In this document: positions 1 to 22,069 of the stretch, one piece after another
Layout: every line of letters begins with the position of its first letter
How positions within the stretch are numbered: position 1 is the first letter of the stretch
Origin: a virus
Virus record (IMG/VR): IMGVR_UViG_3300036979_000364
Coordinates: 1 to 24,026 of that record
DNA length: 24,026 nucleotides
Direction: 5' to 3' (one strand)
Notes under the pieces: generated by a model
Seen by the model: only the letters and a program-made list of their open reading frames with translations
What the model was told of the DNA's origin: nothing
Database searches by the model: none
Translations under genes and position numbers: made by a program

Positions 1-161
1 AATACGCGCACACCTACCGGCTGACCGGCGGGGACGCTCCAACCACGCTCGCCGAGGCCGTGGTCATGGAAGAGACTTCATTGCCGATCTCCGCCGCTGC
101 AGCGATCGACGTTTACGTCTACGCCTTCGGTGCGGCGGGTAGCGTGAGGGTAGACGTGTAA
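1..161 (+). CDS. C-terminal end of an unknown protein, cut by the window edge
   Basis: The frame is open from the first bases of the window and ends in TAA at 159-161, overlapping the next ATG as TAATG. The visible 52 or so residues end in AAAAIDVYVYAFGAAGSVRVDV and contain alternating hydrophobic residues typical of beta strands. Codon use (GCC, GTC, GAG, CTC) matches the genes downstream, and the tight coupling places it in the same late operon. In phages of this layout, portal or connector genes usually lie upstream of the protease gene, but nothing here identifies this fragment as one of them. No family is recognised. The fragment is real coding sequence on the basis of frame, codon use and coupling; its function is unknown. 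Confidence 0.7.
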   Translation, partial: YAHTYRLTGGDAPTTLAEAVVMEETSLPISAAAAIDVYVYAFGAAGSVRVDV

Positions 162-763
162 TGACCGACCAGGCGCGCACATACCGCTCCGCGGCGCCTT
201 CGAACATCGGGCCCGGCTTTCGGCCTGGCTTTTATCCCGATCCGTTCTGGGACGATCAGAACTTTGACGTGCTCTCGATCACGGTCCCCGGTGGCAATGA
301 CGCGCCGACCGCCTATGTCATACCCGGAACGGGGCTCGTGTTGCCGAACTTCCGAAACTCCGCCGGCATCACCGAGATCCCCGCGAGCAAAGAGCTCGAG
401 CACGCTTGGCAAGTCGGGACCCCGATCTATCCGCATGCGCATATCGTGAAGCTGACCGCTACCACCGGTAGCGTGTTCCTCGGGTTCGAGTATAGGATCG
501 CTCACGGGACCACGGTTGTTACCGGAGCGAAAACACTCGTCTTGTCGCTCACCGCGGCCGCCGTTTTAGACGAGGTCGTGTTTGCTGACCTTGGCGAGAT
601 CGCGTTGACGGCGTTCACTACGGTTGGCCCGCAAGTGACGTTCCGGTTCTACCGCGACCCCGGAAATATCGCGGACAATTTCGCCGGCGATATCGGGGTC
701 ACAACGGTCGGGTGGCATTTTAAGCGCGACTCCGCCGGGTCGAGACAGGTCACGACAAAATGA
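161..763 (+). CDS. Probable virion-associated protein of unknown role, beta-rich
   Basis: This encodes 200 residues starting at an ATG that overlaps the previous stop as TAATG. The middle contains a PHAH motif (residues 91-94) followed by beta-like segments, and the end reads GWHFKRDSAGSRQ near residues 184-196. As I recall them, small phage proteins with an H-P-H-H segment and a GWH-x3-D-x2-GSRQ ending occur beside head genes and are predicted to be beta-sandwich proteins; I cannot verify this by search. The gene ends in an ATGA overlap with the protease gene, which supports a head or virion role. It has no signal peptide, membrane segment or catalytic motif. It could be a minor capsid or decoration protein; the function is inferred from position only. 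Confidence 0.6.
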   Translation: MTDQARTYRSAAPSNIGPGFRPGFYPDPFWDDQNFDVLSITVPGGNDAPTAYVIPGTGLVLPNFRNSAGITEIPASKELEHAWQVGTPIYPHAHIVKLTATTGSVFLGFEYRIAHGTTVVTGAKTLVLSLTAAAVLDEVVFADLGEIALTAFTTVGPQVTFRFYRDPGNIADNFAGDIGVTTVGWHFKRDSAGSRQVTTK

Positions 764-2079
764 GCGGAAGCATCCAACAAATTTGGGCATGCGAAGAAGC
801 CGCGCTTGTGGACTATCTATCCCGTCGCGAGCGCTTCGAGCTCACGGGGATTGACCCGAAACACGAAGCTTTCCTTTTCGGCGCTGGTCGAGACAGGGCC
901 TCGATCCTCTCGATCTCGAACGGCGTAGCGACGATCGCGATCGAGGGCGTCCTTTCTAAGGCCGGGCCCGATCTCATTGACCAGCTGCTAGGCCTTGGCG
1001 GGACCGGATACGGGGAGATCGAGGCCGCGCTAACCGAAGCCCTCGAGAGCCCTGCAGTCCAGTCTATCAGGCTCGCGATCGATTCACCCGGCGGCGAGGT
1101 CTTTGGGGTCGACGAGGCGCGCGGCGCCATTGTTCGAGCCGCGAGCGCCAAGCCAGTCACCGCGTTCAACACCGGTCGCGTTGCGAGTGCGGCCTATTGG
1201 CTCGCGAGCTCCGCGCAAAAGATCGTGGCGACGAGCCCGGCGAACCTCACCGGCTCGATCGGCGTGGTCGCCGTTGCTATCGACCGATCAGATCGCGATC
1301 GACGGTTCGGCGTGGTAACCGTGGTCTCACGCAACGCTCCGGACAAGCGCCCGGATCTCAGCACCGAGGCCGGGCGATCGGTTGTGCAGGATCAAGTCGA
1401 CGCGCTCGAGCGGGCCTTTATCGAGCGGGTCGCCGAAGGTCGAGGTATCGAAGCGGACACCGTCCGCGCGACGTTTGGCCGTGGTCGCATGCTCGTCGCG
1501 ATCGACCCCGACGGGTCGAAGCCGAGCGCAATGTCGGTTGGCATGATCGACGAAGTCATCGACGGGTTCGGGACGAGCTCGAGCATCGCCCAAGCGAGCC
1601 CCTTAGCCGTCGACGACCAAGCCATATACGAAGCCGGGCATGCTGCCACGGCTGACCCAGATGCGCCGCATTGCGCGGCCGAAATGGAGAACGACATGAG
1701 CAAAGAGCTAGAGGCCAGAATTGCCGAGCTCGAAACGATGCTCGGGCAAACAGCGGCCGCGCAAACCGACCTAAAGGCGCGCATGGAAGCCGTTGCCCCG
1801 ATCCTCGCTTCGAACGTCTACCCCGCCGTGATTAAAGAGATCGCGGCAAGAGTGCTGTCCGGGAAAGAGCACGCCAAGGCACTCGAGGGTGCCGTCGCGG
1901 TGTTCGATGCCCAGCACGCAACCGCCACGATCGAAGCTGCCAAGCTGGCCTCGTCCGAGGCCAAGGGCCCCGAGCCCCGCGCGCTCGAGTCCGCAACCCC
2001 GGCCGACGGGTCGATCGTTTCCGCCGCGTCGCTCGAGTCCGCTGTGGGCGTGCTCCGCGCACAGCTCGGGAGGGAATAA
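760..2079 (+). CDS. S49-family prohead protease with C-terminal scaffold domain
   Basis: This 439-residue protein is of the lambda gpC type. Such SppA-like (S49) serine proteases cleave the internal scaffold during prohead maturation. Residues about 55-270 form the protease: LAIDSPGGEVFG (105-116) is the conserved S49 signature, Ser143 in VASAAYWLAS is the expected nucleophile, and Lys196 in NAPDKRPDL is the expected general base. Their 53-residue spacing fits the Ser-Lys dyad spacing of short SppA enzymes. Residues from about 310 onward are helical, charged and Ala/Glu-rich, as in scaffold proteins, and an internal in-frame start lies at 1696. The ATG overlaps the previous stop (ATGA). It is followed by the decoration and major capsid genes, the lambda C-D-E order. 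Confidence 0.93.
   Translation: MSGSIQQIWACEEAALVDYLSRRERFELTGIDPKHEAFLFGAGRDRASILSISNGVATIAIEGVLSKAGPDLIDQLLGLGGTGYGEIEAALTEALESPAVQSIRLAIDSPGGEVFGVDEARGAIVRAASAKPVTAFNTGRVASAAYWLASSAQKIVATSPANLTGSIGVVAVAIDRSDRDRRFGVVTVVSRNAPDKRPDLSTEAGRSVVQDQVDALERAFIERVAEGRGIEADTVRATFGRGRMLVAIDPDGSKPSAMSVGMIDEVIDGFGTSSSIAQASPLAVDDQAIYEAGHAATADPDAPHCAAEMENDMSKELEARIAELETMLGQTAAAQTDLKARMEAVAPILASNVYPAVIKEIAARVLSGKEHAKALEGAVAVFDAQHATATIEAAKLASSEAKGPEPRALESATPADGSIVSAASLESAVGVLRAQLGRE
1686..1690 (+). promoter_or_regulatory. Internal ribosome binding site for the nested scaffold
   Basis: GGAGA lies five bases before the ATG at 1696 and in the middle of the protease gene. It sits exactly at the boundary between the protease domain and the scaffold-like tail. 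Confidence 0.55.
1696..2079 (+). CDS. Nested scaffold protein from an internal start in the protease gene
   Basis: An in-frame ATG at residue 313 of the protease is preceded by GGAGA (1686-1690) with a 5-base spacer, a better ribosome site than that of the full-length gene. The product would be 127 residues starting MSKELEARIAELETM, with an N-terminal heptad-like helix and a Ser/Ala/Glu-rich tail. In lambda, the scaffold Nu3 is made the same way, from an internal start in the C gene, in the same frame as the C-terminal part of the protease. What is seen is the start, the site and the change from a protease domain to a charged helical domain at this point. That it is translated separately is inferred. 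Confidence 0.65.
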   Translation: MSKELEARIAELETMLGQTAAAQTDLKARMEAVAPILASNVYPAVIKEIAARVLSGKEHAKALEGAVAVFDAQHATATIEAAKLASSEAKGPEPRALESATPADGSIVSAASLESAVGVLRAQLGRE

Positions 2080-2082
2080 CCC

Positions 2083-2916
2083 ATGACAGTCATGACCATT
2101 ACCGACAATAGCAACAAGCCATTCTTCCTTGGCGGCGGCGATCGCATTGTTCGCAGTCAAGAGACCTTCCTGCAGGAAGCCGGACGCTCTGCAGTGCTCG
2201 CACCCTATACCGTCGTCGCGAAGAACTCGGCGGGTAAGTGGGTCCCGTTGTCTGACGTGGACGTCTACCAGGATTCCGGGTTCATGACCTGCGGAACCCT
2301 CGCCGGCGCCTACACCGTATGGGACGACGTCACCGACGGGTCTTTCTCGGTCACGATCGACGGTGAAGTGATCAACGTCACCGGCCTCAATTTCTCGACG
2401 GTGACAGCCAACACAATGATCCCGTTCGTGATCAACTCCCACGCATCCGTGGTCGGCAAGTTCCGAGTCGTGGACGTCAACGGCCTCGGGACGATCATGC
2501 GCATCGAGTCCTTGAAAAAGGGCCTCGGGGTCTCGTCCGTTTCCGTCCTGTCGGCGGTTGGATCCGGTACCGACATCTCATCGGGAACGACCGTGGGCCT
2601 TAACGGGCGCTCGGGAACTGGCACCGTCACCGCGGCCGTGGGCGACGTGTACACGACGATCCCCGCCGGCATCTACATTGGCACTGAGATCTCCGCCGCG
2701 GCGCTCGTCGCCGGCGACGTGACCAAAAAGCAAGTGCTGGTCGGCGGATTCCCTGTCTACGTCGACAAGAATCAACTTGTCTTCGAGAACTCTCAAACGC
2801 TGGCATCCGTGATCACGGCGAACGGGGTTTTCCAAACCGTCGAAGACTATCTCGTCAATAATCTCGGAATCATTGCCGTCGACTCTGTCGCGATCGACGC
2901 ACAAGAGAACGACTAA
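2083..2916 (+). CDS. Head decoration (gpD-like) protein with an inserted beta domain
   Basis: This encodes 277 residues. The two ends resemble gpD-type decoration proteins that bind the expanded capsid at three-fold sites. The first part has RSAVLAPYTVVAKNSAGKWVPL (35-56), and the last part has GIYIGTEISAAALVAGDVTKK (about 196-216) and VLVGGFPVYVD. Between them, residues about 85-170 (DGSFSVTIDGEVINVTGLNF through AVGSGTDIS) look like a separate module. A similar strand pattern ending GSGTDIS is known to me from DUF3383-type phage sheath proteins. The family is normally 110-150 residues, so the excess length fits an insertion. A strong GGGAGGG site (2068-2074) precedes the ATG; a second ATG at 2092 is less well placed. 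Its position between protease and major capsid supports the call. Confidence 0.8.
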   Translation: MTVMTITDNSNKPFFLGGGDRIVRSQETFLQEAGRSAVLAPYTVVAKNSAGKWVPLSDVDVYQDSGFMTCGTLAGAYTVWDDVTDGSFSVTIDGEVINVTGLNFSTVTANTMIPFVINSHASVVGKFRVVDVNGLGTIMRIESLKKGLGVSSVSVLSAVGSGTDISSGTTVGLNGRSGTGTVTAAVGDVYTTIPAGIYIGTEISAAALVAGDVTKKQVLVGGFPVYVDKNQLVFENSQTLASVITANGVFQTVEDYLVNNLGIIAVDSVAIDAQEND

Positions 2917-2925
2917 GGAGACGCT

Positions 2926-4131
2926 ATGACAATACTGAGCCCAACTGCCCCGAGCATCTACAAACGCACGATGGACGGCGTGTTCGACGAGCGCGATATC
3001 ATCGCAACGCCGACCGGCTTTCAATCACTGTTCGGCCGCCTTGGCGGCGGAACGAGGGTCTTCGAGGCCCAGGACGTCGAGGTCGACGTGGACATCGTCC
3101 GCGGCAACGAGCGGATCGCGCAAATGTTCCCGCGTGGCATGTACGCCCACGACATCGACCCCAAGAAGTACGCGATCCAGGAGCTTTTCTCGACGCGCAC
3201 TTTCCGGTTCCCCTTTGCGGAAGAAGAGACCCACATCTCCGCCGCGGAGCTCCGCTCGCGAACCGCTGGCGAGAGCGCTTACGAGCGTATGGACGGCCGA
3301 ACGCGCTTACGGATGAAAGCGTTCAAAGCTCACCGGGAGCATATCCGCAAGCACATTCGGTTGTTCGAGTACCTCGCCGCCGAAGTGATCCTCACCGGCA
3401 AGCAGCCGGCGATCATCGGTGCGACCGAGACCGAGTGGCTCTATGATTTCAAGCGCCTCTCGACGCACACAGTTGCGGCTTCCGGCGCCTGGCTCACGGC
3501 CGCGACCGATATCCTCGGAGATCTCAACACGGCTTGCCTCGCGCTGCGCAAAAACGGCAAGGTCCGAGCCGACGGCTTGATCCTCGGATCGAGCGCCTAC
3601 GCTGGCGTTCGCGCGAACACCAAGATCTCCGCTGACGCTGACGTCATGCGCTTCGAGATGGTCGAGCTCGGCGGGCTCCGACAAGTGCCAAGCAAATGGG
3701 CATTCATGGTCGAAGCCGGCTTCGACTATCGCGGCCGGCTCGAGGTCGCGAGCGGCAAGCAACTGGACGTGTTCACGTATGACGAGTGGTATGACGACTC
3801 GAGCGGAACCAAAACGCCCTACATGCCCGCGGAGCGCGCGATCGTGTTCTCGTCAGAGACCCGCTGCGACGCTTATTTCGGGCCAAACGAGCGGCTCGAC
3901 TACTCGCCACAAGAGATCGCGGAGATGCAGTATTACCTCGGGATCGGGCCCATGGCCGGCCCGCTTCCACCGAACGTCAAGGCCCCCATGGGTCAGATCG
4001 ATTTGCGGATGTTCCACTTCGACGCGTACCTCGACAGCCGTCGAACAGGTCTCACGATCCGGACACAGTCGGCGCCGATCTTCGCGCCGACGCTGACGGA
4101 TGGTTTTTACGTGATCGACACGACGCCATGA
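2926..4131 (+). CDS. Major capsid protein, lambda gpE family
   Basis: This 401-residue protein matches the phage capsid E family (HK97 fold), the main shell subunit. Recognisable stretches are the early TPTGFQSLFGRLGG, the EVDVDIVRGNERIAQMFPRG strand-loop, the charged helix around RLRMKAFKAHREHIRKHIR, and the late FGPNERLDYSPQEIAEM and RTGLTIRTQSAPIFAP segments, which carry the YLDSR-type ending usual for this family. An AAGGAG site directly after the decoration gene stop leads to the ATG at 2926. Length is slightly above lambda gpE (341). There is no N-terminal prohead extension of the HK97 delta type, consistent with a separate scaffold. The stop overlaps the next start (ATGA, 4128-4131). 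Confidence 0.93.
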   Translation: MTILSPTAPSIYKRTMDGVFDERDIIATPTGFQSLFGRLGGGTRVFEAQDVEVDVDIVRGNERIAQMFPRGMYAHDIDPKKYAIQELFSTRTFRFPFAEEETHISAAELRSRTAGESAYERMDGRTRLRMKAFKAHREHIRKHIRLFEYLAAEVILTGKQPAIIGATETEWLYDFKRLSTHTVAASGAWLTAATDILGDLNTACLALRKNGKVRADGLILGSSAYAGVRANTKISADADVMRFEMVELGGLRQVPSKWAFMVEAGFDYRGRLEVASGKQLDVFTYDEWYDDSSGTKTPYMPAERAIVFSSETRCDAYFGPNERLDYSPQEIAEMQYYLGIGPMAGPLPPNVKAPMGQIDLRMFHFDAYLDSRRTGLTIRTQSAPIFAPTLTDGFYVIDTTP

Positions 4132-4499
4132 CGGTGAAGTGGGCAGCGGGTATGCCGCGCATGCGGAAAAACGGCGGGCTTTTCTGTCTCGGTGACGTGG
4201 TCCCTGACGGCTACTTCACCGAGGCGGAGATCGCCGACCTCGTTTCACGCGGCAAGGTAACCGTTACCGAATCGAAGCAAGTCGAGATCGGAGCTCCCGA
4301 GCTCGTCGAACCCAAAGCTCCCGAGCTCGTCGAACCCAAAGCTCCCGAGCTCGTCGAACCCAAAGCTCCCGAGCTCGTCGAACCCAAAGCTCCCGAGCTC
4401 GAGGAGCACGAGGATCTCGACGAGCCCGACGAGCCGATCGACCTCGGAGCGGTAAGGGACAGGCCGAAGGGGAAACCCAAACGCGGGAGGAAACCATGA
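4128..4499 (+). CDS. Small unknown protein with APELVEPK tandem repeats
   Basis: This encodes 123 residues, with an ATGA overlap with the capsid gene. The N-terminal 45 residues (including GDVVPDGYFTEAEIADLVSRG) look like a small folded domain; similar short proteins often follow capsid genes in Mu-like and lambda-like clusters. Residues about 56-91 are a perfect tandem array of the eight-residue unit APELVEPK, four copies plus a partial fifth, followed by an acidic stretch and a basic end (KGKPKRGRKP). The Pro-Glu repeat is likely an extended, disordered linker. It could be a head-tail connector accessory or capsid-surface protein; no family is recognised with confidence. It is coupled to the next gene by a TGA/ATG overlap. 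Confidence 0.75.
   Translation: MTVKWAAGMPRMRKNGGLFCLGDVVPDGYFTEAEIADLVSRGKVTVTESKQVEIGAPELVEPKAPELVEPKAPELVEPKAPELVEPKAPELEEHEDLDEPDEPIDLGAVRDRPKGKPKRGRKP
4293..4400 (+). repeat. 24-bp in-frame tandem repeat, four and a half copies
   Basis: Identical 24-base units begin at 4293, 4317, 4341 and 4365, followed by a 12-base partial copy at 4389-4400. Each unit starts GCTCCCGAGCTCGTCG and encodes APELVEPK. The copies show no substitutions, so the array expanded recently or is kept uniform by slippage or recombination. Copy number changes would keep the frame. Confidence 0.97.
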
Positions 4500-5721: not shown

Positions 5722-6251
5722 TGACGTTAAATGACTATCTCAATTCTCTAAATGACGCGGAGCGAGTCGCTTTCGTGAAGCGCGTCGAGGCCGTCGGCAA
5801 TCAAACCGTTGACGTGTTTTCCGAGGCCCTGCCGAAGTGGTATGATCCAGAGGCCAGTTCACTAGACGTCAATTCCGTGTATGCGGTGCACAAGCACGAG
5901 GGGCCGGGTGGCTCGAGCCACTTTCATCTGTTATTGCTCGACTATCAATACGCCTATTGGGAGGACGCGGAACGCAAACCCGCGAAGCCGACGAAACCCG
6001 AGGACCCGGATCCAAAGGACGAGAAACCAGAAAACGACGTTAAGATCGTCGCGAGCAAAGCAGATAAGAAGTTTTTCAAGGCCACGGCCAAAGCTGACGG
6101 CTCTACCGAGGACGGGCCCTTGCACGTTTTCGGCTCGAGTTTGTATGACCCAGACAAACGCGTTTTCATTTTCCCCGGAACACAGAAAAAACAGCCGATC
6201 GAGGTCGGCGCAAAGCCGATCGAGGTCGGCACAGAGGAGACTAAGGCATGA
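5721..6251 (+). CDS. Unknown protein between tail terminator and sheath
   Basis: This encodes 176 residues. The frame is open further upstream, to an ATG at 5469, but that part lies wholly inside the terminator gene. The ATG at 5721 has AAGGA upstream and a TAATG coupling, so it is the chosen start. The first 85 residues look folded (helical start NDYLNSLNDAERVAFVKRVE, then HFHLLLLDYQYAYWED). Residues about 88-115 are a Pro/Lys/Glu/Asp-rich linker, and the end carries two copies of PIEVG encoded by a 17-bp direct repeat. No family is recognised. Position suggests a tail assembly or minor tail role. Confidence 0.7.
   Translation: MTLNDYLNSLNDAERVAFVKRVEAVGNQTVDVFSEALPKWYDPEASSLDVNSVYAVHKHEGPGGSSHFHLLLLDYQYAYWEDAERKPAKPTKPEDPDPKDEKPENDVKIVASKADKKFFKATAKADGSTEDGPLHVFGSSLYDPDKRVFIFPGTQKKQPIEVGAKPIEVGTEETKA
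6193..6230 (+). repeat. 17-bp direct repeat at 21-bp period
   Basis: AGCCGATCGAGGTCGGC occurs at 6193-6209 and again at 6214-6230, encoding the duplicated PIEVG near the C-terminus of the upstream unknown protein. It is a recent in-frame duplication just before the sheath gene. Confidence 0.9.
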
Positions 6252-7822
6252 CTATCAGCGCAAGTAGCCTTGCCGCGGCAAACGCGGTGAGCGTCAGAAA
6301 CGTCCAGTTTGCGCCGGCCTCGGAAGTGCTCGCGCGAAAGATCGTCGTGGTTGGGACCTACGATCCGGCGAAAACAACCGTGGTAGCGGCGACACCGATC
6401 CAGGTCCTTAGCCCCGAGGACGCGGGAAGCCGCTTCGGTTTCGGCTTCATGCTTCACCGGCTCGTCAAGGGCGTGTTCGCCGGGTCGAAGGGCGTGGAGT
6501 GTTGGTGCGTTCCGCAAGCGGAAGTCGCGGGAGCCAAGGCCGCAGGGACGATCACCATTGCAGGCACAGCGACGGCAGCCGGAACGCTTCATTTGTACAT
6601 TGCCGGCGACTATGTCCCGGTCAGCATTGCCTCGGGTAACACGGCCGCGCAAGCTACCACCGCAATGATCGCGGCAATCAACGCGGTTACGGATCTCCCG
6701 GTGACCGCCCTCGTCGATGGATCCACGCCAGCAGAGACCGACGTCACCGCAAAGACCACGGGAACCTACGGCAACGAGATCAAGATCCGGCTCAACATCT
6801 TCGACGGGCAAGAGCTCCCCGCCGGGATCACCGCGGTGACGGTCGTCGACCTCACGGGCGGGACCGGAACCCCGGTCATGGCCAACGCACTGAACGGCCT
6901 CGGGACCGGCGACCTCGCGAACGCCAACCATTTCACAGATGGCGTTCACGGCTACCTGCAGGACGCGACCTCGCTCACCGCGATCTCGACTTACAACGGC
7001 GTGGGCAATGACGCGACCGGGCTCTATGACAAGCTCGTCGCTCGTCCTCTCCGGTTCTTGACGGGTGACATCGACGCAGGTTCCGACGGCCTCGCGGCTC
7101 TCGTTGTCATCGGTACCGCCGGCAGGGCAACCGATCGGACTAACGGGATCATCGCCGTTCCCGACTCGCCGAACCATCCGAGCGAGATCGCCGCGATCGC
7201 GATCGGTGTCATGGCGAGAACGAACAATGACCGCGCGGAAGAGTCCTATGTCGGCAAGCTCTTGCCGGGCGTCATCGCTGGTCGACAAGTGGCGATCGGC
7301 GCTGCAGCCGGAAGGTGGACAGACACATACGACAACCGCGACTCTGCGGTCAAAGCCGGGATTAGCCCGACGATCGCGGATACGGGTTTCACCGTCAGGT
7401 TGCAGAACGTCTTGACGTTCTATCATCCGACTTCGGTCCCCGTGGGCTCGAACGGCTACCGCTCGATGCGGAACATCTCGATCGTCCAGAACATTCTGAA
7501 CTCGGTCAAGACGAACTTCGCACAAGAGAAGTGGCAAGGGATCTCGATCGTCGCTGACGTAAACAAGGTCAGCAACTCACTGAGCAAAGACAAGGCGAGG
7601 TCCTCGAGCTCGGTCATTACCGATCTCGTCGCGCTCGCCGACGCGTTCGCCTCGCGTGCCTGGCTCTATGATGCGTCGTTCACGAAAGAGAACTTGACCG
7701 TTTCGATCCGCACCGGCGGTATCGGGTTCGATTCGGTCATGCCCGTTGTGCTCTCGGGCGAGGGCGGGATCCTCGACACGAGAGTGGATTTCGACACAGC
7801 GCTAACCGTGTTCCTCGCGTAA
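6248..7822 (+). CDS. Tail sheath protein, Mu gpL-like
   Basis: This 524-residue protein forms the contractile sheath around the tail tube. It has the Mu gpL layout. The N-terminal segment includes ASEVLARKIVVVGTYDP. A surface domain follows at about residues 95-180 (AGTLHLYIAGDYVPVSIASGNTA, then TYGNEIKIRLNIFDGQELPAG). The core contains FTDGVHGYLQDATSL and VIGTAGRATDRTNGIIAVPD. The conserved C-terminal half has LPGVIAGRQVAIGAAAGRWTD, VLTFYHPTSVPVGSNGYRSMRNISIVQNIL and VSIRTGGIGFDSVMPVVLSGEGGILDTRVDFD, which includes the strands exchanged between neighbouring subunits in sheaths. The presence of a sheath makes this a contractile-tailed (myovirus-type) particle. The start overlaps the previous stop by four bases (ATGACT, 6248-6251). 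Confidence 0.93.
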   Translation: MTISASSLAAANAVSVRNVQFAPASEVLARKIVVVGTYDPAKTTVVAATPIQVLSPEDAGSRFGFGFMLHRLVKGVFAGSKGVECWCVPQAEVAGAKAAGTITIAGTATAAGTLHLYIAGDYVPVSIASGNTAAQATTAMIAAINAVTDLPVTALVDGSTPAETDVTAKTTGTYGNEIKIRLNIFDGQELPAGITAVTVVDLTGGTGTPVMANALNGLGTGDLANANHFTDGVHGYLQDATSLTAISTYNGVGNDATGLYDKLVARPLRFLTGDIDAGSDGLAALVVIGTAGRATDRTNGIIAVPDSPNHPSEIAAIAIGVMARTNNDRAEESYVGKLLPGVIAGRQVAIGAAAGRWTDTYDNRDSAVKAGISPTIADTGFTVRLQNVLTFYHPTSVPVGSNGYRSMRNISIVQNILNSVKTNFAQEKWQGISIVADVNKVSNSLSKDKARSSSSVITDLVALADAFASRAWLYDASFTKENLTVSIRTGGIGFDSVMPVVLSGEGGILDTRVDFDTALTVFLA

Positions 7823-16494: not shown

Positions 16495-17123
16495 CGACCG
16501 TTTTAAGCAAGCCATCGGGCTATCGAACCGGCGGAAGTGGGGCGAGGGTTCTACGGATCACGGTGTCGTCACCATTCCCGCCGTCAGCCTACGCGCAACA
16601 CGAGCTCATATTGCTGGCCGGCAAAGAGTACCGGCTGCAGGGCTGGCTAAGGTCGGATTCCGTGAACGAGTTTGACCTTGCGATCTGGTCCTCGCGCGTG
16701 GACGAGGGCGGAGCGGATACCGAGATCTTCACGCTAAGCGGAACGGCCGCGTGGGCTCAATTCGACGAGACCTTTACCCCTGCGCATGACAGTTATTTGA
16801 GGTTTGGCGGGATCTATATCGAGGCTCCGACGGGCAATTTCTGGTTCGAGTTCGACGATATAACGCTATGGGCAACGGAAGACGTTCCCACGAACCCGAT
16901 ACTCTACTGGACAGCCGGCGGTGACGCGGTACTAGCGAAGGATCTCTCCGAAGTTTACGAGGGGCTGCAGAGCCTTTCCATCACCGCTGACACGAACGAC
17001 TTTTCGCAGCAAGACGTCAATCTTGACGAGCGTTACGCGACCGTGAGTGACGCGTTCGTCATGTTCGACGGCGGGAGCGGAGTGCTAAGAAGCCGCGTCC
17101 TAGATCCGGAGCCCCCAGCATGA
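16491..17123 (+). CDS. Carbohydrate-binding-like tail protein, starts inside a module
   Basis: This encodes 210 residues. Residues 1-125 align by eye with residues 325-448 of the next protein: VLSKPSGYRTGGSGARVLRI here against TLSKQSGTRTGGSGSLVIRV there, and FWFEFDDITLW against GHVEFDDVTIE. The pattern is that of CBM4/9-like beta-sandwich modules. However, the first strand of the module (LSTTSLWTAGEG) is encoded at the end of the preceding gene, in another frame. The second half (VLAKDLSEVYEGLQSLSITADTN) begins a further module. It begins and ends with ATGA overlaps. It may be a separately translated piece of one long adhesin or a frameshifted segment. Binding to host surface glycans is an inference. 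Confidence 0.7.
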   Translation: MTTVLSKPSGYRTGGSGARVLRITVSSPFPPSAYAQHELILLAGKEYRLQGWLRSDSVNEFDLAIWSSRVDEGGADTEIFTLSGTAAWAQFDETFTPAHDSYLRFGGIYIEAPTGNFWFEFDDITLWATEDVPTNPILYWTAGGDAVLAKDLSEVYEGLQSLSITADTNDFSQQDVNLDERYATVSDAFVMFDGGSGVLRSRVLDPEPPA

Positions 17124-20100
17124 ACAACACGCTTTCCAATGGCTTCGATGACCTCGAGGTCCCCGAGCTCGACGGCGGGACGAATGATTCGACCACGCTT
17201 TCGCTGACGTTCAACGGCGAGGACCAGGGCGCCAAGGGCACCATAACCCCGAGCGGGACCGCTGGCGCGATCACCGCGTGGGTCAAGGTCAATGACGCGT
17301 CGCGTGACGAGTCGTTCCGGCTTCGACCCCGGATCACCGGCTACAAAGCGCTTCCCGCCGCGCTGACGATCGACGGGGTTACTGTGCAACCCTCGATCCG
17401 GCTCGAGGGCGGGGACGCGGACGCGACGTCATGGGACGATGTAGTGAACAGCAAAGTGTATTCTATTGCCGGAAGTGGCAGTCTTCCAACGTTCGACGAG
17501 GAGTCACCGGGGATCGATTGCAAGCGAGTGAAATTCGGCGGTGCAAAATACTTCACGGGCGGAACCGCCATAGGCGTGGGCTCTAATGATATAGTCGTTG
17601 AGACGATTATCAGGGCAACGGACCTTTCGGGCGGCTTCTACGTAATAGCCGGGGACAGTTCGTCAGCCCCGGGTTTTTTATTATATCATAACGCGGCATC
17701 GAGTACTCTCACTCTCGGTTTACGCGACTCCGTACCAGTAACCGCGGGAATCAGCACACCAGGCTTGATTGAGGGCGCCTGGTACCATTTGATCTGGTTC
17801 ATCGACGAGAGCGGCAACGGTAGGTGCTATGCTAACGCCGCAGCAGGAACAGCAGTCGCGGTGTCGACCGTGGGCAGCATCAGCACAACAAACCTTTTTG
17901 CGATCGGTGCGGACGGCGCGGGGGGATACGCAGGTAGCTCTATTATATCTTATTTCGCCCTCTGGCACCGCGCGAGCTGGCTCGCTACCGCGGACTATGC
18001 CGGCATAGCCGCAAAGCGCTTTGCTCAATGCTGCGGAACCTACGCCGAGACGGCGCAATTAGTAAACCCCGGGTTCCTCGATCTCGATATGGAAGCCGCG
18101 GACGCCGCGTCATGGACTGCGCTAAACACCGCGACTCTGTCGAAGCAATCGGGAACGAGGACCGGCGGATCGGGATCGCTCGTGATCCGCGTCGCCGGCG
18201 ACGGTAGCACGTCTTCTCCCAAAGCCGCGCAAACCCGAGCCGGCGGGATAACCCGTGTCACCGGGTGGGCCCGATCGAACGGCGCTGCAGTCCCCACCGT
18301 GGCGCTCACGAGCACCACGATTTGGACGGGATCGAACTCGACGAGCTGGCAAGCTTTCGATATTGCCGTCTCGTCCTATCTCTACGCGTCCACGCGGCTC
18401 GAGCTCGGGACCGCGCTCGCAACTGGGCACGTCGAGTTTGACGATGTGACGATCGAGGTCGACGGCGCCATACCGACAACGCAGTCCAGATCGACCGTGG
18501 CTTACCTCGAGAAATGGAACATCGCCGAAACCGAGGCGTATTTAATCCCCGTCGGCCCAAACTGGACTAGAACGGATAAAATCAAGTGCACTGACGGGAC
18601 TTTTGAAATAGGGGCGAGGCTAGAGCAAGCGCAAGCGAACCTGTTTTTGTATTCCGAGGACTTTAGCAACGCCGCGTGGACAAAAACGCGTGTGACGCTC
18701 GGGACCTCGATAACGGGGCTCGGGAGCCTGACGTTCAACGCGATCGTGGCCAGCGTGGACAACGCAACGCATCTTGTCAGCCAAGGCGTAACAACCGCGG
18801 CGAGCGAGGACCACGCTGTTTCCATTTATGCAAAGGCCGGAGCAGGGACCGTAAACAGCATAAGGATCGAGCTGAACGAGGACGCAACACAGTACGCCTA
18901 TTATAACCTCGCAACGGGCGAGATCGGCGACGTCGGAGCTGGCTTCACCCTAACAGCGCCGGCGCACATATACCCAAAGGGGAATGGGTATTACCGTTGT
19001 GATTTCCGGCCCACTACCCCGGGAACTGCAGCGACGGTAAACATCTATCTGTCAAGCGGATCGACCGCGGGAAGCGAAACCTTCACCGGCGACGGAACCA
19101 CAGTGGGGGTGTACCTAGCCGGAGCGCAATTCGAGCGCCAGCTAGGCTCAAGCCAACACACGGGATCCCCTTCGAGCTACATAAAGACGACTTCCGCCAC
19201 GGTCACGCGAGTTAAAGATCTCGCGCTATATCACGGGTATGAGAATTGCGGCGGGCTAAATACCAAAAACGTCCACATGAAAGTGGATCACGTGTGCCTC
19301 GCTTTCGCAAACAACTATGTAGGGCTTCGCACCGCCGGATCACTCACGTCGAAAAGCGCAAACGACAGATCAGAAATCTACTCTGATATGTCCTCAAAAA
19401 AGTGGAATGCGATCGCAGTAACGGGCGGGACCACGCAAGCCAGTCTAGCGGCCACGACATCGACACCCTTTGATGACAACCTGCAAACAATCGAGGCGTG
19501 TTTCGCAAAAAACAACGTCGCGCTAGTGGTGAGCAAAACCGCCGAGGCTCGAGACACGTCAGCAACCATAAACCCAATGACCGAGATCGTCGTGGGTGCT
19601 AGCACCGGTTATTTGTACCACATTGACGGCATCATAACTGATTTCATTCTCTCGCCTTACGGGACCGAATACCCACGGGCGATCTTTGCGCTCGATAAAG
19701 ACGCCTACACCCAACAAGCGTTCGTGGGCTACGACATGCTCGACGATGACGCCTTGACGTACGAGCTCCGCGCCGGCGGCGGGACCACGCGACTAGTCAC
19801 AATGAACGGCGGGACCTTGAACGCCGGCACGTGGTATTTGATCAGCCTCGAATGGACGGGCGGGACCTCGGTTAGGATCCTAGTCAACGGTACCAGCGTG
19901 GACGGCGCGACGGCCGACGCGACGGTCGCCGAGCTGACCGATCTGTTCATTGCCTGGGCAGGGCTCAAGGGCTACACGTACGAGCCCGCAAGCGGCGATC
20001 CCGACTATCCGATCACCTACGGGGCGATCTCGATCGCGGACGTGCAACACCACGTCGCGGTCCCGCCGGCGGCCTGGTACACTGAAATGGTGGCCCGTGG

Positions 20101-21187
20101 CGTACCGGCGAAAAACGAGCATCTCATTCACCAGATCTCGCAAGTCGCGCAAGAGGCCGCGACTCACTATGACCTACTGACCGGAACGGAAGGGGCGATC
20201 ACCGATAGCGGGAGCATACTTGATTTCGTTCCGCCTACCGAGGTCGGGCTAGCGCTCGGCGCGAGCTCGACGAACAAGACGATCATCGACTTCGGGACGA
20301 ACTTCGCGTTCATGCAAGAGGCCTCGCACAGTTACGACGCTTGGATCCGCGTCGACGGTAGCGGGGATCAATGCATATGGGCGAACGGCGACGCAAACAC
20401 AACTGACTTTCAAGCGCTGCTTTACGACAACGCGACCGACTCGCTTGTATACAAGTGCGTCATCGGTGCGACCCTAAGATCGGTGAGCGCGGAGATCGAG
20501 CTCGATAGGCTCTACCACGTCACCGTCACGCGAGACTATGATAGCGGCGCGGGGACCACGGCGATCGCGATCTACCTCGACGCGGTCGCGGCCGATATCC
20601 AGATCTATTCCGGAGCCCCCGTGGTGACGAATGACGATTTCGTCATGCTTTCCTCCTCGACAAATATTGAAGAAGTAACATTCACGCTACCTTTCATCGG
20701 GGCGACCGTGGGCAATCGTTTTTATGATGACGCGTTGACCCAGGCGGAGATCGACGCGATCTATCTCGCGGACAGCGCGGTCATCTTGAACGGGCCATAC
20801 GCGACGCAAACGATCACGCCGGCGACCTTGCCCGCGACGATCTCGGGAGCTGTGAAGCCGGACGGGATCAACGGATATCCGATCGTTCTCGTTCAAGAGG
20901 ACAGCGGCGGAGCGTGGCGAGCGATAGCAACGGCGGAGAGCGAGACGGGTTACTCCGAGTTCTCGAAGCAAACCAAGGTCAATGACTTTAGGTTGTACGC
21001 AAAAGGGTTCAACACCTATGAGCCCGTCACGGCATACTTCGATGACCTCGACGGCGGAGAAGATCCCGGCGAGTTCACGATCGGGATCGTCGAGGTCGCG
21101 AAGAACAAGCGCAAAGCGTTAGAGAATCTCGTGCTCGTCCACAAGCCTTTGCACTCGTGGGCAGTAATGGTGGTCAAGTACATCTGA
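17120..21187 (+). CDS. Giant multi-domain tail adhesin with gp48-like C-terminal end
   Basis: This encodes 1355 residues, nearly all predicted beta. Modules by eye: a lectin-like (LamG/ConA) unit about 150-300 (IVVETIIRATDLSGGFYVIAGD, GAWYHLIWFIDESGNG); a CBM-like unit about 315-448; a phage-typical module about 505-700 opening NLFLYSEDFSNAAWTK; further lectin-like units about 715-850 and 855-985 (GTWYLISLEWTGGTSVRILVNG); and a LamG-like unit about 1045-1215 (SHSYDAWIRVDGSGDQCIWAN, YHVTVTRDYDSG). A small sandwich lies at about 1235-1310 (ISGAVKPDGINGYPIVLVQE). The last 30 residues, KRKALENLVLVHKPLHSWAV and after, match the end of gp48-type baseplate proteins. It is probably displayed at the baseplate edge to bind the host. 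A GGAG ten bases upstream serves the ATG, which overlaps the previous TGA. Confidence 0.8.
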   Translation: MNNTLSNGFDDLEVPELDGGTNDSTTLSLTFNGEDQGAKGTITPSGTAGAITAWVKVNDASRDESFRLRPRITGYKALPAALTIDGVTVQPSIRLEGGDADATSWDDVVNSKVYSIAGSGSLPTFDEESPGIDCKRVKFGGAKYFTGGTAIGVGSNDIVVETIIRATDLSGGFYVIAGDSSSAPGFLLYHNAASSTLTLGLRDSVPVTAGISTPGLIEGAWYHLIWFIDESGNGRCYANAAAGTAVAVSTVGSISTTNLFAIGADGAGGYAGSSIISYFALWHRASWLATADYAGIAAKRFAQCCGTYAETAQLVNPGFLDLDMEAADAASWTALNTATLSKQSGTRTGGSGSLVIRVAGDGSTSSPKAAQTRAGGITRVTGWARSNGAAVPTVALTSTTIWTGSNSTSWQAFDIAVSSYLYASTRLELGTALATGHVEFDDVTIEVDGAIPTTQSRSTVAYLEKWNIAETEAYLIPVGPNWTRTDKIKCTDGTFEIGARLEQAQANLFLYSEDFSNAAWTKTRVTLGTSITGLGSLTFNAIVASVDNATHLVSQGVTTAASEDHAVSIYAKAGAGTVNSIRIELNEDATQYAYYNLATGEIGDVGAGFTLTAPAHIYPKGNGYYRCDFRPTTPGTAATVNIYLSSGSTAGSETFTGDGTTVGVYLAGAQFERQLGSSQHTGSPSSYIKTTSATVTRVKDLALYHGYENCGGLNTKNVHMKVDHVCLAFANNYVGLRTAGSLTSKSANDRSEIYSDMSSKKWNAIAVTGGTTQASLAATTSTPFDDNLQTIEACFAKNNVALVVSKTAEARDTSATINPMTEIVVGASTGYLYHIDGIITDFILSPYGTEYPRAIFALDKDAYTQQAFVGYDMLDDDALTYELRAGGGTTRLVTMNGGTLNAGTWYLISLEWTGGTSVRILVNGTSVDGATADATVAELTDLFIAWAGLKGYTYEPASGDPDYPITYGAISIADVQHHVAVPPAAWYTEMVARGVPAKNEHLIHQISQVAQEAATHYDLLTGTEGAITDSGSILDFVPPTEVGLALGASSTNKTIIDFGTNFAFMQEASHSYDAWIRVDGSGDQCIWANGDANTTDFQALLYDNATDSLVYKCVIGATLRSVSAEIELDRLYHVTVTRDYDSGAGTTAIAIYLDAVAADIQIYSGAPVVTNDDFVMLSSSTNIEEVTFTLPFIGATVGNRFYDDALTQAEIDAIYLADSAVILNGPYATQTITPATLPATISGAVKPDGINGYPIVLVQEDSGGAWRAIATAESETGYSEFSKQTKVNDFRLYAKGFNTYEPVTAYFDDLDGGEDPGEFTIGIVEVAKNKRKALENLVLVHKPLHSWAVMVVKYI

Positions 21188-21205: not shown

Positions 21206-22069
21206 ATGTTAGATTTCTCGGGCTTCGATAACACAAGCGGATCTTTCCCGAACGTCGAGGCGACCGACTCGAGCGGGCCCACGCTACGCGACGGAACGCC
21301 GATCAACGCGAATCTGATAAATGATATTTGGGGCGGGTTTCAAGCGATCTTGAACGCTGCAGGGACCACGCCGAGCGATGGCGTCGAGACCTCGAGCGCG
21401 AGCGATCTGCTCGACTCGATCCGCAAGCTCGGCGGGGCTCCCGGTGAGGTCGTGCTATACGCCTCGCCGAGCGAAACCATCGACGCGAATATTCTCCCAC
21501 TCAAAGGGCAGATGATCACGATCTCCGCCTATCCCGCTCTCGTCGCCGCGACCTACATTGGTGACACGAATAACCCGGTGGCGAACTTCCCCGCGTTCTA
21601 TAAAGCAAGTGACGTCACCGGTTTTGTGCGCAACACCGCGGGACCCTATTTCAGGCTCCCCGATTGCCGCGGCTATTGTCTTCGCGCACTAGCCGGCGCC
21701 CGTACGGGCGTGGACGCCTATCGTGATTACTACACTACGTTACTTGGAGTCGACCATCGCAACATGTCGGGCCTGACCACAGAATACAGCCCGGGATGGC
21801 ATATCCACGACATTGAGACGGACGACGGGGATCAAGTGCTAGAAGAGCTCAACTATGTCATGAGAGCGAACCCGGGCAACGTAACGGGCTCGGGGGGTAC
21901 AGTGGCCACATACGCAAACTACGTTTGGAAAAAAACAACCGCCGCATCTTACGACCTCGTCACAAAGATCAGCAGGCTGGCCTCGCCGGTCACTGATTTC
22001 GGAGTGAACGCCAGTTACAACGAGGTCTATCCGCGGAACGTCGGCTTTCAACTCGGAATCCGGTACTAG
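21206..22069 (+). CDS. Tail fibre protein with tail-collar domain
   Basis: This encodes 287 residues. The N-terminal part (RDGTPINANLINDIWGGFQAILNAAGTTPSDG) is typical of proteins that attach short fibres to the baseplate. Residues about 78-165 form a phage tail-collar domain: GEVVLYASPSETIDANILPLKGQ, then ISAYPALVAAT and YFRLPDCRGYCLRALAG. The end, RNVGFQLGIRY, resembles the conserved terminus of such fibres (N-x2-x-x-IRY). HIH at 199-201 in the distal part could bind metal, as HxH sites do in several fibre tips, but a single HIH is weak evidence. A GAGGAG site after the adhesin stop gives a clear independent start, one of few in the cluster. Confidence 0.85.
   Translation: MLDFSGFDNTSGSFPNVEATDSSGPTLRDGTPINANLINDIWGGFQAILNAAGTTPSDGVETSSASDLLDSIRKLGGAPGEVVLYASPSETIDANILPLKGQMITISAYPALVAATYIGDTNNPVANFPAFYKASDVTGFVRNTAGPYFRLPDCRGYCLRALAGARTGVDAYRDYYTTLLGVDHRNMSGLTTEYSPGWHIHDIETDDGDQVLEELNYVMRANPGNVTGSGGTVATYANYVWKKTTAASYDLVTKISRLASPVTDFGVNASYNEVYPRNVGFQLGIRY

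Follow-up and report, generated by a model that had tools for sequence, protein, structure and literature searches.

Gene context and domain layout

The 24,026 bases analysed here (the window) form an IMG/VR virus record that encodes a 277-residue decoration protein between an S49-type protease on the 5′ side and an E-type major capsid protein on the 3′ side (Table 1). This order of protease, decoration protein and capsid protein is the one expected of gpD-like decoration proteins, and is also found in the isolated-phage homologue L031. The insert that interrupts the window protein is present in all nine close relatives first retrieved (77-97% identity). Direct searches with the window protein gave no match in PHROGs or NCBIfam, none to the HDPD family at E ≤ 1, and none in the PDB when the whole protein was compared using phmmer. 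Neither did a Foldseek search with its model return any match at E ≤ 0.001, the weak list consisting mostly of antibodies.

Table 1. Features of the decoration locus and of the tail sheath gene in the window, with the carriers of a second inserted domain among relatives (given as locus:positions).
Feature	Position	Strand	Evidence
S49-type head maturation protease	760..2079	+	Peptidase_S49 E 2.4e-14; PHROG 53 head maturation protease 1.6e-49
Decoration protein, 277 residues	2083-2916	+
gpD-like (β-tulip) core, N-terminal part, residues 1-57	2083..2253	+	alignable with homologues lacking the insert as far as KWVPF(T)D
Entry linker, residues 58-66	2254..2280	+	missing from insert-less homologues; placed like the A-to-A linkers in nested relatives
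A-half of InD/DUF3383 domain, residues 67-107	2281..2403	+	71 bits to the half-domain HMM, whose seeds include the window piece
B-half of InD/DUF3383 domain, residues 109-175	2407..2607	+	72 bits to the half-domain HMM, whose seeds include the window piece
Exit linker, residues 176-189	2608..2649	+	counterpart of the B-to-B linkers in nested relatives; low pLDDT
gpD-like core, C-terminal part, residues 190-277 and stop	2650..2916	+	aligns with insert-less homologues from IPxGIY on
Major capsid protein, lambda gpE type	2926..4131	+	Phage_cap_E E 3.6e-16; PHROG 29 major head protein 9.9e-27
Distant same-fold domain in own tail sheath, residues 94-194	6527..6829 (gene 6248-7822)	+	Phage_sheath_domII E 2.3e-5, below cut-off
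Second-domain carriers	L080:1336-2367; L068:2-1135; L051:3231-3974; L054:3225-3974

Elsewhere in the window, the gene after the capsid gene contains a perfect 24-bp tandem repeat of 4.6 copies (4292-4401) that encodes repeated APELVEPK, and whose copy number may be variable. A 1355-residue protein (17120-21187) contains three Laminin_G_3 / concanavalin A-like stretches (E 2.4e-14), which suggest perhaps a tail-associated carbohydrate-binding protein, and 21206-22069 shows a weak match to a phage tail collar domain (E 3.6e-4, below cut-off).

A gpD-like core split at one loop

The sequence-only reading took both ends of the protein to be gpD-like, and its homologues and predicted structure bear this out. 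The insert-less homologue L045 matches HDPD at E 1.8e-6 (28.5 bits, just under the curated cut-off of 29.1) and the PHROG ‘head decoration’ at E 3.5e-7, while the isolated-phage homologues L031, L033 and L034, at the same gene position, score above the HDPD cut-off. The annotated head decoration proteins of AeroV_348 and SNW-1 occupy this gene position. An alignment of 42 homologues also provides a natural empty site, with the insert-less proteins running from the KWVPF(T)D strand straight into the IPxGIY strand. Because these proteins close directly across the site, the insert is bounded at residues ~58-189 (nucleotides ~2254-2649); the foreign stretch previously placed at 2330-2650 is real, if wider than was proposed. 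Within it the domain proper covers residues 67-175, and the AVGSGTDIS motif residues 158-166.

The AlphaFold2 model of the window protein (mean pLDDT 71.7) is confident for the core on both sides and less so for the insert. In blocks of 10 residues, pLDDT is 81-94 over residues 11-60 (47 in the first block) and 77-95 in the C-terminal core up to residue 270 (48 in the last block), and falls below 50 over residues 60-66 and 146-187, the C-terminal part of the insert thus being poorly modelled. With long low-confidence stretches omitted, the model core (1..269) matches the YSD1 capsid chain 6xgq_a with a Z of 10.3 and an rmsd of 4.0 over 116 aligned residues (target 124), which points to a β-tulip fold; YSD1_16 is named as a trimeric β-tulip decoration protein in the available text of a review (PMC7602432). 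Rather than one continuous, indivisible fold, the prediction gives core and insert as separate blocks, joined by low-confidence linkers and matching different solved proteins, as expected if the decoration core can be divided from the insert. The missing HDPD match of the window protein itself would leave room for another head protein in place of a decoration protein, e.g. a scaffold or head-closure factor, but the HDPD and head decoration matches of its aligned insert-less homologues, the gene position shared with the annotated proteins of AeroV_348 and SNW-1 and the fold match to 6xgq_a make this hardly tenable. Sequence and model together support a gpD-like (β-tulip) decoration protein whose core is interrupted, in one loop, by an additional domain.

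The insert is related to a tail sheath domain

The likeness of the insert to DUF3383 tail sheath proteins, proposed in the initial reading, is recovered by a profile search with the segment alone, which matches Pfam DUF3383 at E 2.1e-4, below the curated cut-off (20.7 bits against 34.9) and over the first 33 residues only; in the window protein the match is restricted to profile positions 91-134 of 493. Homologous inserts exceed the cut-off in L114 (3.6e-9), L053 (5.8e-11), L029 (2.2e-13) and L064 (3e-20), and lie below it in L026 (9e-8, just under) and L046 (1.4e-4). With the inner copy of L029 as query, the XM1 tail sheath structure 7kh1 is also matched, over its residues 115-213, at E 2.5e-8. 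On this match and those to DUF3383, from window and homologues alike, we reject chance or a composition artefact as the source of the insert.

Structural alignment of the window insert model (64..189) with residues 100-215 of the XM1 sheath gives a Z of 6.9, on its own an ordinary value, and an rmsd of 3.4 over 103 residues, the next matches being other phage sheaths, flagellins and FliD. The modelled inner domain of L064 (160-285) aligns far more closely (XM1 sheath 97..216, Z 15.2, rmsd 2.0, 115 residues), and both models are consistent with the fold of the XM1 sheath insertion domain (InD). The available text of PMC10457771 places this domain within the sheath N-terminal domain, likens it to FliD D3 and calls it unique to XM1; from the residue numbers, we read it as the same stretch that the insert matches. 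The window protein lacks the sheath N- and C-terminal domains around InD and is not a tail sheath, the sheath being encoded by a separate gene (6248-7822). Sequence matches and models support the insert as a portable InD domain of ~110 residues, fold-related to the outer domains of flagellar FliD and flagellin.

The window’s own sheath contains a distant domain of the same fold, from which the insert might have been copied recently. However, that sheath is Mu/Milano-like (Mu sheath 9khy, E 8.5e-24), whereas the insert is closest to the DUF3383/XM1 and Magia sheaths. In addition, HMMs of the A and B halves of the domain, each built from 10 pieces taken from L029, L064, L050, L026, L114 and the window, matched 26 of 2226 ORFs in 135 loci at E ≤ 0.01, all of them decoration ORFs (including L004 and L005), the window sheath not being among them. 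A recent copy from the phage’s own sheath is therefore unsupported, and we consider it very unlikely. At the level of fold, residues 100-214 of the Mu sheath 9khy match the L064 inner domain with a Z of 5.8.

Probable self-nesting of the domain in relatives

The halves of the domain are ordered AB in the window and the other single-copy relatives, AABB in L053 and L046 (neither among the HMM seeds) and AAABBB in L029/L030 and L064. A and B halves are equal in number, with every A before every B, in L029 and L064 (3+3), L053 and L046 (2+2) and the window (1+1). In L041, which lies outside the survey described below, the contig runs out after two A halves and a single B half (AAB), and the protein is probably a truncated AABB.

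The similarities between copies are mirrored. In L029 the A-A identities for pairs 1-2, 2-3 and 1-3 are 82, 75 and 70%, and the mirrored B-B identities 74, 61 and 52%; the corresponding values in L064 are 62, 54 and 50%, and 59, 48 and 38%. A-A identities thus follow the same order as mirrored B-B identities in both three-copy proteins, an order that sequential pairing breaks in both, and the innermost copy is in each case the most divergent. When pairings are ranked by the correlation of A and B distances in 10 proteins, the fully nested pairing comes first of 144 (r 0.797), a small lead over the runners-up (second, 0.794; sequential, 0.644) in a ranking that is not a significance test. The linkers of nested copies, 9-11 residues entering and 14-18 residues leaving, resemble those between domain and core: in L064, the B1-to-B2 linker is ATGTGTATAGTGGLGEGV and the B3-to-core linker starts LTGTGTVTASTGFDGANIP.

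The model of L064 has a pLDDT of 78.4 and a pTM of 0.42, hence the relative arrangement of its domains is unsure. Two further alignments span 63..434 (89 residues, Z 5.3) and 111..358 (87 residues, Z 2.9); their targets are unrelated proteins, Z is low, and they yield end points only. The spans sit where the outer and middle domains would be expected, so the model lends support to nesting.

The AAABBB order could instead reflect one elongated solenoid, grown by separate duplications of an A-hairpin and a B helix-hairpin. Linear order alone is compatible with both readings, and for L029 the correlation differs little between nested and alternative pairings. Separate duplications sit poorly, however, with A and B counts that are equal in L029, L064, L053 and L046, with the mirrored identity order in both three-copy proteins, and with inter-copy linkers that are like domain-to-core linkers. 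Nor would a solenoid be expected to yield an innermost A+B that makes up one whole, uninterrupted domain of XM1 type (Z 15.2), or alignments that span 63..434 and 111..358. In a second, unrelated domain (see below), the outer C1 and D2 halves of L080 are likewise both nearer to single-copy relatives than the inner halves are. We therefore regard the solenoid as unlikely, and favour nesting over tandem repeats because of the mirrored A/B similarities, the equivalent linkers and the L064 model. Sequence and model support one or two rounds of insertion of InD within its own sequence, at the loop that connects the A-half, made of strands, to the B-half, which opens with a helix, the linkers being equivalent.

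Nested forms were seen in uncultivated virus contigs only. A tblastn search of phages with L064 gave no match at E ≤ 1e-3, and among 395 genomes of one phylum L029 matched only its genome of origin (G001), and there with its core part only. An assembly artefact is unlikely, as the L029 copies compared are only 67-75% identical in DNA, and a misassembled repeat is unlikely also because L029 and L030 agree across two metagenomes.

A second, probably nested insert and the distribution of both domains

A second inserted domain, unrelated to InD, occupies an earlier loop of the same decoration core. It is present as a single copy in L051, L054, L084, L089, L090, L091, L098 and L108/L109, and nested in L080 (CCDD) and in L068 (CC then DDD), where the contig starts inside the gene. 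Compared with single-copy relatives, the outer halves of L080 stand at 50 and 60%, and the inner halves at 44 and 35%.

To survey both inserts, capsid-protein alignments were scanned across viral contigs (in one scan, the best 80 of 94 relatives) and genome contigs, for which a first search with the major capsid protein gave no loci and a second gave four. The gene upstream of the capsid gene was sought in 85 loci and found in 79, the other 6 either lying at a contig edge or having an open frame that misplaces the capsid start. Excluding one locus with a short capsid gene left 78, which represent 71 distinct capsid proteins when the last 300 residues are compared. No insert is present at 47 of these 71. 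InD is found at 10 (six single-copy, two two-copy and two three-copy), four of the six single-copy rows being the window’s own clade, and the second insert at another 10: eight single-copy, plus L068, which has three C-terminal halves, and L080, which has two and whose row is marked ‘part’ as it is represented by the truncated L078. The remaining rows comprise L071, scored as other, and three that are unreadable.

L071 encodes a 349-residue decoration homologue (2941-3990) with an insert that resembles a further InD-like nested domain. Shuffled sequences score as high in 15 of 2000 cases for its B-half, which stands out, and in 459 of 2000 for its A-half, which does not; statistical support is partial, and L071 is not counted as InD. 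In L052, no decoration ORF of at least 60 residues lies between protease and capsid gene (3734-3982).

Mapping the InD label onto a tree of the capsid proteins takes a minimum of 4 changes, of which well-supported branches force only one, so repeated gain of InD is not proven.

Putative role of the nested insert

By analogy with known gpD-type proteins, the protein would form trimers at three-fold or quasi-three-fold sites of the capsid and would display the insert at every three-fold site. We infer that the insert projects outwards from the capsid to a distance set by nesting. Each nested copy would lengthen the projection, and the innermost copy would lie at the tip. We judge it likely overall that these proteins combine a decoration core with a loop-inserted InD, self-nested in relatives, which would act as a mast of adjustable reach. 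Such a mast could serve contact with cells or surfaces, although an adhesive role, first raised in the sequence-only reading, would be the least certain step; surface adhesion by the insert is plausible, if a speculative guess. A broader proposition, to which we would give even chances, is that masts of this kind arise by repeated self-nesting with both ends anchored in the core, that at least two unrelated domains have taken this course independently in different loops, and that the copy at the tip diverges fastest, as is expected if the tip makes contact.

Alternatively, the insert may mainly strengthen the shell or form trimer contacts, lying flat over neighbouring capsomers and thickening it. 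In crAss001, according to the available text of PMC10172136, the outer capsid layer consists of an auxiliary protein that bears a FliD-like domain, and an insertion domain of the major capsid protein increases wall thickness and stability; gpD-type proteins are themselves described as cementing proteins (PMC7602432). Proteins that share this gene position carry anything between 0 and 3 copies, which is less readily reconciled with this role, as is the absence of the insert from 47 of 71 distinct capsid loci, by which the capsid type is independent of it, and stepwise nesting would not obviously be tolerated by a flat contact domain. We consider a mainly strengthening role possible but rather doubtful, while between adhesion and added shell strength as such the results here fit either.

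Comparison with known systems

Both parts of the protein, the decoration core and the sheath domain, are known; for their combination and for the self-nesting series we found no report in the literature searched, which covered few subscription papers and in which no decoration protein was described as having self-nested domains. With 0, 1, 2 or 3 copies of the same domain occupying a single loop of a capsid protein, these phages offer a natural series in which the evolution of nested domains can be tested directly, and which suggests a way for phages to tune the reach of their capsid surface. The two insertion-tolerant loops of the gpD core should be useful for display on phage heads.

The window protein shares its core fold and its position before an E-type capsid gene with lambda gpD, YSD1_16, TW1 gp56 and XM1 gp53 (PF02924), and has short homologues that score above the HDPD cut-off; the sources available in part mention no insert in these proteins, in contrast to the sheath-type domain found here. 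The inserted domain corresponds to the InD of XM1 gp6 (DUF3383, PF11863) in sequence for the L029 inner copy and in fold for the L064 inner copy; the InD is likewise an insertion in a host protein, which there is a contractile sheath carrying one copy. The findings here put a sheath InD of the XM1 type, a domain considered unique to XM1 in 2023, on capsids.

Precedent for the insert comes from the FliD-like capsid domain of crAss001 and the nesting of D3 in D2 in FliD. The auxiliary capsid protein gp36 of crAss001 resembles the window protein in having a FliD-like domain (75-237) within an outer capsid protein, but this is set in a PH-like domain rather than a β-tulip, and the available text describes no self-nesting (PMC10172136). 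The outer domains of flagellin and D2/D3 of FliD are related to the insert in fold; in FliD, D3 is inserted in a loop of D2, the head domains are discussed as possible adhesins (PMC8533109), and insertions of domains are said not to be unusual among FliD, flagellin and hook proteins (PMC7316729). These systems differ in being flagellar, and the parts of the sources available gave no series of 0, 1, 2 and 3 copies within one close family. T4 Hoc, as far as its partly available description goes, is similar as a head protein bearing a string of variable surface domains, but its string consists of three Ig-like domains attached to a capsid-binding domain at the C-terminus, whereas the domains described here are nested within a loop of the core.
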